DNA of 64,000 nucleotides from Teretinema zuelzerae (lineage in GTDB: Bacteria; Spirochaetota; Spirochaetia; Treponematales; Treponemataceae): positions 992,001 through 1,056,000 of the forward strand of contig NZ_JAINWA010000001.1 of assembly GCF_021021555.1 (NCBI RefSeq). Direction: 5' to 3'. The notes under the pieces are model-generated. The model made no database searches, was not told the DNA's origin, and saw only the letters and a list, made by a program, of their open reading frames with translations. Both the position numbers and the translations under genes were made by a program. Every line of letters starts with the position of its first letter. Within the stretch, counting starts at the first letter, position 1. Below are positions 13,701 through 50,758 of this stretch, in pieces.

Positions 13701-14078
13701 TCAATTCCCCGAGGAAGCCTTGTTCAGGGCTTCCTCTACTGCGCGCAGGATGACCTTGCTGCTGAGCGTCGCGCCGCTGACGACGTCGACGCTGGTCGAT
13801 TGCGAAGCGATCACCTGATCGATCACCGCTTCCGCTTTTTTTCCCATCCCGTTGTCGTGTCTGACGATTTCAATGTCGGCGATTTTTTCGTTCTCCGTCG
13901 TCACCAGCACCGTCGCCTTGACGAGGTCGGTATCGAAGGAGCCTTCCCACACGCCGTCCCTGGTTCCTTCGGGGCCGCGGCCGGCGAGGTCGACTTCTAT
14001 CGAACACTTTTGAGCGGTAAGGGTGAATACGAGAAGGACGACTAATACGCCCGTCGGCAAAAGTTGAGCAGTTTTCAT
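13701..14078 (-). CDS. Exported FMN-binding domain protein (covalent flavinylation site)
   Basis: 125 aa with an N-terminal hydrophobic export/anchor segment (LLPTGVLVVLLVFTL) and one FMN_bind domain. The C-terminal DVVSGATLSS matches the Dxx(S/T)GA(S/T) motif to which ApbE attaches FMN through phosphoester to Thr. Such proteins shuttle electrons outside the membrane, as in NqrC/RnfG and extracellular reductases. ATG 14078 is chosen because GAAGGAA precedes it; an open frame extends further upstream without a better start. A MITE copy begins 27 nt upstream, so its promoter may lie in or beyond that element. Confidence 0.85.
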   Translation of the reverse strand: MKTAQLLPTGVLVVLLVFTLTAQKCSIEVDLAGRGPEGTRDGVWEGSFDTDLVKATVLVTTENEKIADIEIVRHDNGMGKKAEAVIDQVIASQSTSVDVVSGATLSSKVILRAVEEALNKASSGN

Positions 14079-14105
14079 GATTCCTTCGTAGCAACAATGA
14101 ATATT

Positions 14106-14215
14106 GGGCACCTCGAAAAACTCGGTTAGTTTTCCTCGGTGCCCTTGTAAATCCTTACAGGATTTACACCTATATTAAGGTAGACCTCTAAAAACTGAAG
14201 TTTTTAGAGGTGCCC
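14106..14215 (+). mobile_element. MITE copy 1, 110 bp with 17-bp terminal inverted repeats
   Basis: The ends are GGGCACCTCGAAAAACT and the complement of GGGCACCTCTAAAAACT (16 of 17 match). It is flanked by TATT on both sides (14102-14105 and 14216-14219), a target duplication. Internally it holds three hairpins: GGGCACC/GGTGCCC, TGTAAATCC/GGATTTACA and ACCTCTAAAAACT/AGTTTTTAGAGGT. A copy in the opposite orientation lies at 47698-47807 and differs at one internal base and one terminal base. It has no coding capacity. Confidence 0.9.
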
Positions 14216-14507
14216 TATTGTTTTTACGCGACGAAATCGAAGTTCCGCGCGCATGAAGTACAACAGCCGGCGGGGCAGAAAGCGTTACTGCGCGATGGAG
14301 TAAAAAGCGGGGGTGAGCGGAAAAACGCCGGGGCCTGAGGCATACGCAAAGTAAAGGAGGCTTTCTATACCTACCGGTAGGTATAGAACATAGCCAAACA
14401 AACGCAAAACCCCGGCTTTTGGAGCTCAGGGGGAGCCGGCCCGAGACCGGCATGCGCGCCCGGAGAAAAACCGAAAACGCGCGAATTCCGCTGATCCCCC
14501 CTCCTCC
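14216..14507. other. Gene-free stretch with a 26-bp perfect palindrome
   Basis: No credible gene is visible. Open frames here lack a ribosome-binding site and have atypical Arg/Pro-rich composition. The stretch holds the palindrome described separately and a GCCGGGG/CCCCGGC pair that brackets it at longer range. Confidence 0.5.
14363..14388. promoter_or_regulatory. 26-bp perfect palindrome, TetR-operator-like
   Basis: Half-site TTCTATACCTACC is followed directly by its exact complement, with no spacer. The central ACCTACCGGTAGGT has the look of many TetR-family operators. There is no TetR-type gene in the window and no gene directly downstream, so the target is unclear. Confidence 0.45.
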
Positions 14508-41852: not shown

Positions 41853-42386
41853 AAGCCGCCTGCCAGGCGCGCTTACCGCCAGCCAACACGCTTACCGCCA
41901 GCCAACACGCTTACCGCCAGCCAACACGCATACCGCCAGCGCGGCACGCTTACCGCCAGCCGGGCACGCATACCGCCAGCGCGGCACGCTTACCGCCAGC
42001 CGGGCACGCATACCGCCGGCCAGGCACGCTTACCGCCAGCGCGGCGCGCTCACCGCCAGCGCGGCACGCTTACCGCCAGCGCAGCGCGCTTACCGCCAGC
42101 GCAGCGCGCTTACCGCCAGCGCAGCACGCTTACCGCCAGCCAACACGCATACCGCCAGCCGACACGCATACCGTCAGCCGACACGCTTACCGCCAGCCGA
42201 CACGCATACCGCCAGCGCGGCACGCTTACCGCCAGCGAGGCACGCTTACCGCCAGCCGACACGCTTACCGCCAGCAGGGCGCGCTTACCGCCAGCCGAGG
42301 CACGCTTACCGCCAGCGCAGCGCGCTTACCGCCAGCGCAGTACGCATACCGCCAGCCGGGCGCGCTTACCGCCGGCCGGGCGCGCG
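41853..42386. repeat. Intergenic minisatellite, about 26 units of 19-20 bp
   Basis: The constant part is CGC(T/A)TACCGCCAGC, repeated 26 times from about 41870 to 42375, with a degenerate unit before the first. Between constant parts come 4-6 variable bases (CAACA, CGACA, GCGGCA, CGGGCA, GCAGCG, GAGGCA and others), giving periods of 19, 20 and once 21 bp. A T/A toggle at the fourth base of the unit divides units into two types. The mixed period prevents a conserved reading frame. It fills the whole gap between the convergent AraC gene and the small membrane-protein gene. Confidence 0.95.
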
Positions 42387-42387
42387 G

Positions 42388-42663
42388 TTAGTCTGCCTGC
42401 GAGTCTTGATCGGCGGGAGAGGCGTCCGCTGCGGCGGATATGTCGGCGGCTTCGTCGCGGACGCGATCCGAATGAACCTTCCGCCAGCCCATCCAGCACA
42501 CGAGCAGGGCGACTATGGCGCCGTTTCCCACAGTGCGGATCGATTCTTCAGAAGCGAATCCAAGCTCGGTCGCGATGAAGCCGTAGCCGATCATCACCGC
42601 TCCGCTGAGGAACACTCCGGCGAGCAGCAGTTTTTCCGTCAGTTTCGACTGTTCTTTCGTCAT
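42388..42663 (-). CDS. Small two-helix membrane protein, function unknown
   Basis: 91 aa. Two hydrophobic segments (LLLAGVFLSGAVMIGYGFIA and NGAIVALLVCWMGW) are followed by a polar, acidic C-terminus (DEAADISAAADASPADQDSQAD). GGGGGA lies 8 nt before the ATG. It begins 15 nt after the alpha-galactosidase stop on the same strand, so it is likely in that transcript. Its stop abuts the tandem repeat array. I do not recognise the family. Confidence 0.6.
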   Translation of the reverse strand: MTKEQSKLTEKLLLAGVFLSGAVMIGYGFIATELGFASEESIRTVGNGAIVALLVCWMGWRKVHSDRVRDEAADISAAADASPADQDSQAD

Positions 42664-47692: not shown

Positions 47693-47697
47693 AATAA

Positions 47698-47807
47698 AGG
47701 CACCTCTAAAAACTTCAGTTTTTAGAGGTCTACCTTAATATAGGTGTAAATCCAGTAAGGATTTACAAGGGCACCGAGGAAAACTAACCGAGTTTTTCGA
47801 GGTGCCC
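47698..47807 (-). mobile_element. MITE copy 2, 110 bp, opposite orientation to copy 1
   Basis: Reverse complement of the element at 14106-14215, differing at one internal base (TTACTGG against TTACAGG) and one terminal base. It is flanked by ATAA on both sides (47694-47697 and 47808-47811), a 4-bp target duplication. It separates the rhodanese stop from the promoter of the chemoreceptor, whose -35 starts 13 bp beyond its end. It may act as a terminator through its hairpins. Confidence 0.9.
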
Positions 47808-47819
47808 ATAAGTCTTTGT

Positions 47820-47855: not shown

Positions 47856-50153
47856 ATGAAACTGCACTTCGCCGGATCGAGAACCGTAACATCCATACTA
47901 CACATTCTGTGCGCGGCGGCGGCTCTGCTGCTGTCGGCTTACCTTTTCCCCGCTCCCCTCCCGACCCTCGCGGGCATACTGCTTTTCGCGGGAAACGCGC
48001 TTGGCTTTTTGCTTACGCGCTCGCAGGGCAAACGCCAGGAGCGATTGCTCGAGGACACGACCGGCACGGTCAAGGAGATGGCGAGGCAGATCGCCCACGG
48101 CGTTTCGTCGTTCGCCTCCGGCGACATGAGATACCGCCTGACGATGCCGGGAAAGCCCTGCCTGACGGAAGAAGGAGAAGCCGTCGCTAAGAGGCTGCGG
48201 ACAGGAATCGACGATTTCAACAGCATGACCGAGAGCCCTCCCAAGCGGATTTGCTTTGTCGGAGCGAACTCGTACCAGGAAGGCCGCGCAGCCGGCGAGA
48301 ACATCGCCCGCATGCTTTCCGGAAAAGGCAAGATAGCCTATATAATTCCGATGTATACCCAGGTAAACCATGTGCTGCGCATGAAGGGCTGCAGGGATTA
48401 CCTCGCCGAATACGCCCCCGGCATACAGAACGAGGGCATTTTCGAATCGCGGGGAAATCCGCCGACGGCCGCCGAAATCGCGCTTAAGGCCTGCTCCGAA
48501 ACCCCCGACTTGAGCGTCATATTCATAACCGACGGACACACGCCTTCGGCCGTAGCGGAAGCGTTGGCGGAACGGAAATGCCGCGTTCAGCTGGTAATCT
48601 TCGACGCGACCGAAACCAACATCGGCCTTTTGAAACAAGGGAAGATCGCGTCCCTCATCGAACAGAACCCCTACGGTCAGGCCTGGAACGCCCTTGTGCA
48701 CCTCTACAACGCCTGCGAAGCTTCGTGGAAGCCGACCACGAGAAAGCTCTTCATGGATCCCATCTACATCGACAAAGCGAACTACGCAACCTACTGGGAC
48801 GACGGCAGGAACCGCCGGATCATGAAGGAAGACGAGCGGTCTCAGCTGGCCGTTCCCGCGCCGAACAGATCGGGAAAGAAATACCGCTTCGGAATCATCA
48901 TGCCCCAGAAAACGGGCTTCTTCGCCGCCCTGGTCGAAGGCGCGGAGGCGGCCGCTTCCAAACTGTCGGAATACGGGGTCGAGGTCGAACTTGTCGACGC
49001 CTATCACGCGCAGGAGGACTTCGGCAGCGCCGGTCTGTACTGCCCCATCATCCAATCATTCATAGACCGGAAATTCGACGGTTTCATGACGAGCATCATC
49101 GATCCGCAGGTTATGAAATGCGTGAACAAGGCTGTCGAGAGCGGACTCAAGGCGACGACGTTCAGCACCGAGCCTTCAAGCTTCCGGGAAATAATTCTCA
49201 CCCTCATGGACAACGCGGAAGGCCTCATGGGCGCGAGCCAAAACCTCGCGTCGGCCGCTGAGGAATCGGCCCGGGCGAATATCCAGATAGGCTTGTCGAT
49301 TTCGGGAATCCGGGACGACATGGACGAGCAGCAAAGCAGCGTATCTGATACGGAAAACCGGCTGGAACAGCTGAACCGCACGATGGAAACGATGAAGGCC
49401 TCGCTCGATTCGTATACCGAGCTCGTGCGGAAAATGAGCGCGGAGTCCACCGGAGGCGCGGAAGAAATGGACGCGGCGGTAAGGGAAAGCGGAGAGCTGA
49501 GAACGGCGATCGCTTCGATCGAGCATGCGCTCGTCTCCTTCTCGGAAAAACTGGGCTCGGTGAAGGATTTCGCCGGAGTGATCGAAGGTTTGGCGGAAAG
49601 CACGAACGTGTTGGCGATTAACGCCTCGATACAGGCGGCCCGCGCGGGAACGGCGGGAAAATCGTTCGCGGTGGTCGCCGGGGAAATTCGCAGTCTTTCG
49701 GCGAATTCCCGAACCGCGGCGGAAAATATCCGCGCGACGGTGAATGACATAACCGGTTCTATGGATGAAATTCTTGAGGTAAGCACGGGAGGCAGCAAGC
49801 TGGTAGACCGAAATCTGGCGAAAACCAGGGGCGCCCAGCAAACCTTTTCTTCTATCACGCAGGGACTGCGGGGTTCGGCTGAAAGCATTCAGACTATCGG
49901 AGAATCCGCGTCCGAGGTTGCCGCTAACGGCAAAACGGTCAAAGAAAACCTTGACGCGATAGCCACGGCTACGGGAAGCACCGCCGAACGCATCCAGGAA
50001 ATATCGATCGCCATCGCCCAGCTTGAACGGCAGGGAAGCAGTCTTTCGGAAACCGCCAACTCGCTTCTGGACATGGCGGCGAATCAGAAGGTAGCCTTCT
50101 CGCAGCTTTCGGTGAAAGACACGGAGAAGGCCCCCGGACGTAGCACTCGCTAG
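47856..50153 (+). CDS. Chemoreceptor with an apparently circularly permuted sugar-binding domain
   Basis: 765 aa. Two adjacent N-terminal helices (about residues 12-31 and 35-54) are joined by a very short turn. Everything after is soluble, so the rest should be cytoplasmic. Residues 131-312 (RICFVGANSYQEGRAAGENI, FITDGHTPSAVAEAL, LIEQNPYGQAWNALVHLYN) match the second part of a type I periplasmic binding fold. Residues 342-443 (YRFGIIMPQKTGFFAALVEG to LKATTFSTEPSSF) match the first part. The order is thus inverted. Residues about 445-760 form the signalling helix hairpin, with tip near VLAINASIQAARAGTAGKSF. It probably reports an intracellular sugar to the chemotaxis array. Confidence 0.85.
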   Translation: MKLHFAGSRTVTSILHILCAAAALLLSAYLFPAPLPTLAGILLFAGNALGFLLTRSQGKRQERLLEDTTGTVKEMARQIAHGVSSFASGDMRYRLTMPGKPCLTEEGEAVAKRLRTGIDDFNSMTESPPKRICFVGANSYQEGRAAGENIARMLSGKGKIAYIIPMYTQVNHVLRMKGCRDYLAEYAPGIQNEGIFESRGNPPTAAEIALKACSETPDLSVIFITDGHTPSAVAEALAERKCRVQLVIFDATETNIGLLKQGKIASLIEQNPYGQAWNALVHLYNACEASWKPTTRKLFMDPIYIDKANYATYWDDGRNRRIMKEDERSQLAVPAPNRSGKKYRFGIIMPQKTGFFAALVEGAEAAASKLSEYGVEVELVDAYHAQEDFGSAGLYCPIIQSFIDRKFDGFMTSIIDPQVMKCVNKAVESGLKATTFSTEPSSFREIILTLMDNAEGLMGASQNLASAAEESARANIQIGLSISGIRDDMDEQQSSVSDTENRLEQLNRTMETMKASLDSYTELVRKMSAESTGGAEEMDAAVRESGELRTAIASIEHALVSFSEKLGSVKDFAGVIEGLAESTNVLAINASIQAARAGTAGKSFAVVAGEIRSLSANSRTAAENIRATVNDITGSMDEILEVSTGGSKLVDRNLAKTRGAQQTFSSITQGLRGSAESIQTIGESASEVAANGKTVKENLDAIATATGSTAERIQEISIAIAQLERQGSSLSETANSLLDMAANQKVAFSQLSVKDTEKAPGRSTR

Positions 50154-50721: not shown

Positions 50722-50758
50722 GACCTCGAAAAAAAAACTTGAGTTTTTCGAGGTGCCC
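50722..50758 (+). mobile_element. Solo MITE terminal hairpin (remnant)
   Basis: ACCTCGAAAAA (50723-50733) pairs with TTTTTCGAGGT (50744-50754) and is followed by GCCC, like the right end of the 110-bp element, but with four extra A in the left arm. The remainder of the element is absent. It lies between tpx and the BNR-protein promoter, and could serve as a terminator. Confidence 0.7.

Follow-up and report, generated by a model that had tools for sequence, protein, structure and literature searches.

A probable IS5-type MITE family with three covarying hairpins in Teretinema zuelzerae and its relatives

Two 110-bp sequences in opposite orientation within the window, the 64,000-nucleotide stretch of Teretinema zuelzerae DNA analysed here, raised the question of what kind of element they represent, what moved them and how their hairpins came to be maintained. 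A sequence-only reading of the window had taken them for transposed copies of a MITE. At a probability of roughly 0.87, we consider them members of a non-autonomous IS5-type MITE family that would depend on an IS5-family transposase acting in trans, hold its three local hairpins at the DNA level and decay by deletion to solo hairpins. As a kind, the MITE is well known; what is unusual here is the set of three covarying hairpins and the decay to solo hairpins in which the insertion scar persists. The earlier reading had noted neither the folding into three hairpins and its conservation nor the solo hairpins derived from the element, all of which are described below. Features of the window that bear on the question are collected in Table 1.

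Table 1. Positions in the window of the two MITE copies, their parts and their neighbours
Feature	Position	Strand	Remark
FMN_bind gene	13701..14078	-	start codon 27 bp from copy 1, which lies upstream; outside element
Left target duplication of copy 1	14102..14105	.	sequence TATT
MITE copy 1	14106..14215	+	110 bp; same sequence as three further genome copies
Left hairpin	14106..14144	+	TIR and adjoining inverted TIR-like arm, 5-nt loop
Middle hairpin, TGTAAATCCT-TAC-AGGATTTACA	14146..14168	+	not TIR-derived
Right hairpin	14184..14215	+	ends in right TIR
Right target duplication of copy 1	14216..14219	.	sequence TATT
Left target duplication of copy 2	47694..47697	.	sequence ATAA; 1 nt past rhodanese gene stop codon
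MITE copy 2	47698..47807	-	differs from copy 1 by two substitutions, one in the terminal base
Right target duplication of copy 2	47808..47811	.	sequence ATAA
Chemotaxis receptor gene (Peripla_BP_4 + MCPsignal)	47856..50153	+	ATG 48 bp downstream of copy 2 end; outside element
Single-hairpin relative, GACCTCGAAAAAAAAACTTGAGTTTTTCGAGGTGCCC	50722..50758	-	TSD: none seen

The coordinates, opposite orientation, two differences and perfect TATT and ATAA target duplications (TSDs) reported in the sequence-only reading were exact to the base, the substitutions between the copies falling at element positions 54 and 110. Its 17-bp terminal repeats (TIRs) were likewise borne out, with one mismatch between the left and right TIR (GGGCACCTCGAAAAACT and GGGCACCTCTAAAAACT). 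Counting copies by their end sequence across the host assembly (3.62 Mb in 3 contigs, 97% complete), a check that the same reading had proposed, returned ten near-full-length copies, four of which were identical, copy 1 among them; the TIR pattern matched 31 times, compared to a single match for a reversed-pattern control. Perfect 4-bp TSDs flanked eight of the ten host copies (TATA, TTAT, TGTA, TATT, TTTA, ATAA, ATAA and TTAA), against a mean of 1.1 and a maximum of 6 when left and right flanks were randomly re-paired (20,000 permutations), and a perfect TSD was also present in 15 of 22 relatives of the 110-bp type. Across the 23 perfect TSDs pooled, 92% of bases were A/T, with T in first position in 17 and A in last position in 18. 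The element was 110 bp long, multicopy, without a transposase gene, and bounded by TIRs and TSDs; its ten copies, eight of them with perfect TSDs at differing targets, support both MITE status and movement by transposition. Bacterial MITEs (reviewed in PMC10969869) share with it their short length, AT-rich intergenic targets, TIRs and TSDs, their capacity to fold and their presumed mobilization in trans by an IS. Unpaired MITE-type ends were also located at C1:71089 and C1:85842 of the host genome, neither with a partner end within 1.5 kb, and are probably element remnants.

Recent movement, which had been proposed from the near identity of the window copies, was supported by the four identical host copies and by the finding that no copy in 11 congeneric genomes shared flanks with either window copy. 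No strict empty site was found, as the flanks of both copies were non-syntenic in the congeneric genomes examined; orthologous neighbour genes were present in congeners, but in a different order. Copies in another genome of the same genus (G083; 77% complete, 6% contamination) were 90-97% identical to host copies, whereas comparable neighbour genes within the genus, of which few were compared, were mostly 66-75% identical at the DNA level, which suggests recent or horizontal spread of the element. G083 seems to correspond to the public record Treponema sp. MAG11, because the stretches L333 and L093 have a solo hairpin in common, flanks included. It had further been suggested that the inverted copies could invert the 33 kb between them. 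Such an inversion is possible in principle, but both copies are still flanked by matching TSDs of their own, which shows that crossing-over between these two has caused no net inversion since insertion. Beyond the genus, a covariance model built on the 110-bp type had matches in 97 of the 195 genomes sampled from the host's family, in 10 of 20 genera, some of the matches (at most 19 listed per genome, hence a minimum count) being partial or degenerate, which places the MITE family in about half of the sampled genomes. The element had no match in plasmid and phage collections, and none of the papers searched named it or Treponema MITEs.

Clues to the transposase lay in the ends of the element. 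The terminal GGGCACCTCNAAAAAC of the MITE matched the ends of complete IS5-family ISs (NCBIfam NF033581). Public genomes contained at least 118 stretches matching GGGCACCTCTAAAAACT, distributed over many phyla; several bounded elements of 85-290 bp that had 4-bp TSDs, and some ended complete ISs, which encoded IS5-family transposases (PF01609 + DUF772; NF033581 E 1.7e-70 to 4e-81). One IS with the same ends (L150) was 1236 bp long, with the TSD TTAT and a transposase of 358 aa. Within the host's own family, genome G033 possessed seven intact copies of a ~1210-bp IS with ends GGGCACCTCTAAAAACC, TSDs such as TTTA and TGTA, and a 337-aa transposase (NF033581 E=3e-90). The ends of the MITE are those of these two transposase-bearing ISs, and from this match we infer that an IS5_4-type transposase moved it; ~16 bp of shared ends could fit a whole IS5 subgroup rather than single out the actual partner. 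IS5-family ISs (NF033581) resemble the MITE in their GGGCACCTCTAAAAAC ends and 4-bp AT-rich TSDs, but differ in carrying a transposase gene, the MITE sharing only the ~16-bp ends with them, and the hairpins of the MITE were absent from the IS5-family IS ends read here.

The expectation of an active transposase elsewhere failed for this 97%-complete assembly, in which no IS5_4 type was detected; G033 has it. NF033581 (transpos_IS5_4) had no match in the host assembly at E <= 0.001, while control genomes gave matches, the G033 transposase had none at E <= 10, and the suggested search for a host transposase gene with the same terminal repeats found none in the assembly. The 411-aa DDE transposase of the host was rejected as partner, as it belongs to an IS4-type IS with unrelated ends (TCACTGCTGTCC). 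That IS, the sole DDE_Tnp_1 IS in the host, was present in eight copies with ends TCACTGCTGTCCAAGATAA (e.g. C1:575482 and C3:1200354). No partner of the MITE could be detected in this assembly, where the element stands as an orphan. The partner was presumably lost, is carried on a replicon outside the assembly, or was active in passing; it is also possible that it was missed in a 97%-complete assembly. We propose that an IS5-family DDE transposase would recognize the GGGCACCTCNAAAAAC ends in trans, and that the element would insert into AT-rich 4-bp targets, favouring T first and A last. It would fold into three local hairpins, with the TIR at each end facing an adjoining inverted copy. Arm sequences would then drift while complementarity is kept, through quasipalindrome correction at replication, through a requirement for extruded DNA hairpins, or through both, and deletions between TIR-like direct repeats would yield solo hairpins of 36-41 bp that retain the TSD.

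In typical MITEs, the two TIRs pair together in one long stem. Here, by contrast, each end folds back alone and a third hairpin, unrelated to the TIRs, stands between them: the DNA fold comprised three successive hairpins without any stem pairing the two TIRs (z = -8.2), and divergent relatives kept the three hairpins in this order as well. Alignment A1, which comprised 23 elements of the 110-bp type, showed double-sided changes at 22 of 39 pairs. Double-change cells in A1 numbered 67 compared to 19.4 after shuffling, and the covariation score was 0.232 compared to 0.080 in shuffles and no more than 0.064 in slid controls, where the structure, partly hand-set from the host copy, is favoured in the slid control and kinship inflates the shuffle control. 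A second alignment of 15 elements of 130-143 bp (A2) was scored for the middle and right helices, omitting the left helix, whose loop length varies; these were 99.2% paired, with 20 double-change cells against 5.9 shuffled.

Such an element is a natural test case for whether function or palindrome correction underlies covariation in repeats. Template switching, or quasipalindrome correction, is described in two papers (PMC7202029, PMC8604942) as homogenizing the arms of inverted repeats, and it is quite possible, if somewhat short of an even chance, that the compensatory changes arose in this way alone and serve no function. Covariation was symmetric between strands and half-changed pairs were few, as correction would have it; however, the order of the three hairpins was retained despite diverged middle stems, and the near-invariant tips and CGAG...ATCGC base that recur in the 130-143-bp type suggest some constraint.

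In the host, solo hairpins 36-41 bp long and flanked by perfect TSDs were found at C3:1000652 (TTAT) and C1:1128158 (TATA), and solo hairpins in G083 and G158 were flanked by the perfect TSDs ATAA, TACT, TAAT, TTAA and ATTA. The four TIR-like arms of the element are direct repeats as well as inverted ones, and deletions between them predict three products: a 36-bp right-type hairpin from the CACCTC repeats, a 39-bp left-type hairpin from GGTGCCC and a 39-bp hybrid from AGTTTT. All three were observed, so deletion accounts for the solo hairpins with no added assumptions, and we infer that they arise by deletion between internal direct repeats with the TSD retained, leaving scars that may be likened to solo LTRs. 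Alternatively, the solo hairpins might transpose by themselves, since identical 36-bp hairpins occurred at differing perfect TSDs in G083 and G158. We regard this as unlikely: deletion would likewise keep the TSD and yield identical products, and the three hairpin types are exactly those predicted from CACCTC, GGTGCCC and AGTTTT. A possible role for the folded-back ends and middle hairpin would lie in transposition itself, for example as extruded hairpins presenting paired transposase sites, with the 36-bp solo hairpins, each a head-to-head pair of TIRs, mobile in their own right. We give this combination a rather low chance; if true, the 36-bp solo hairpins would be among the smallest DDE-transposed units.

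The compensatory pairing, which is strong in each of the three helices, might also be read as the mark of a MITE-borne structured RNA (a terminator, processing signal or cis-regulator) selected as RNA, and the location of copy 1, 27 bp upstream of the FMN_bind gene, and of copy 2, between two co-oriented genes encoding a rhodanese and a chemotaxis receptor, would suit such a role. Selection on an RNA made from one strand is expected to raise G-U pairs above A-C on that strand, but G-U cells were no commoner than A-C cells (18 vs 27 in A1 and 1 vs 1 in A2). Since neither strand showed a wobble-pair excess, the arms appear to be maintained as a DNA palindrome and not through an RNA function. Copies were inserted in both orientations, and Rfam gave no match in the window and none for the host copy in a permissive search. 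A promoter and terminator scan found no outward promoters at copy 1, where scores were no better than shuffles; copy 2 held a single terminator-like site, with one promoter-like site near it but outside the element. Taken with these results, RNA selection is very unlikely. Paired changes that look not to be driven by RNA, in a repeat this widespread, call for caution in calling structured RNAs from intergenic covariation. REP/BIME-type palindromes moved by RAYT (TnpA_REP) are also short palindromic units present many times per genome, but they are defined by the lack of a target duplication, and the 4-bp TSDs and IS5-type TIRs found here leave that origin next to no probability.

Two Rfam families, TD-1 and TD-2 (RF03155 and RF03162), were compared with the element. 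The middle hairpin of the 130-bp type (CGAG-stem-ATCGC) resembled part of TD-1, with L294 scoring 29.2 bits against TD-1 (gathering score 64.5), but the 110-bp element of the host matched neither family and its overall layout differed. GGGCACC ends were absent from the TD-1 copies inspected. TD-1 was rejected as the same element for the host copies, the resemblance being partial and restricted to the 130-bp type. TD-1 itself scored above its cut-off in 37 of 195 family genomes, with at least 17 copies per genome in several, and may be a mobile repeat. Its copies often adjoined Shine-Dalgarno-like sequence, and were arranged in tandem at G029:C1:599348-599970 and G033:C1:1445309-1445793, with spacings of ~165 and 174 bp.

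Two further repeats were observed in the window. A perfect palindrome, TATACCTACCGGTAGGTATA, was situated at 14366-14385 (host C1:1006366-1006385) and recurred at 27 host sites with up to three mismatches, compared to none for a reversed-pattern control; several copies had longer arms that were complementary yet variable (e.g. GTAAAGC...GCTTTAC), and the sequence is either an operator or a member of a second family of palindromic repeats. At 41870-42420, the window carried an array of ~20-bp tandem units (CACGCTTACCGCCAGC...).
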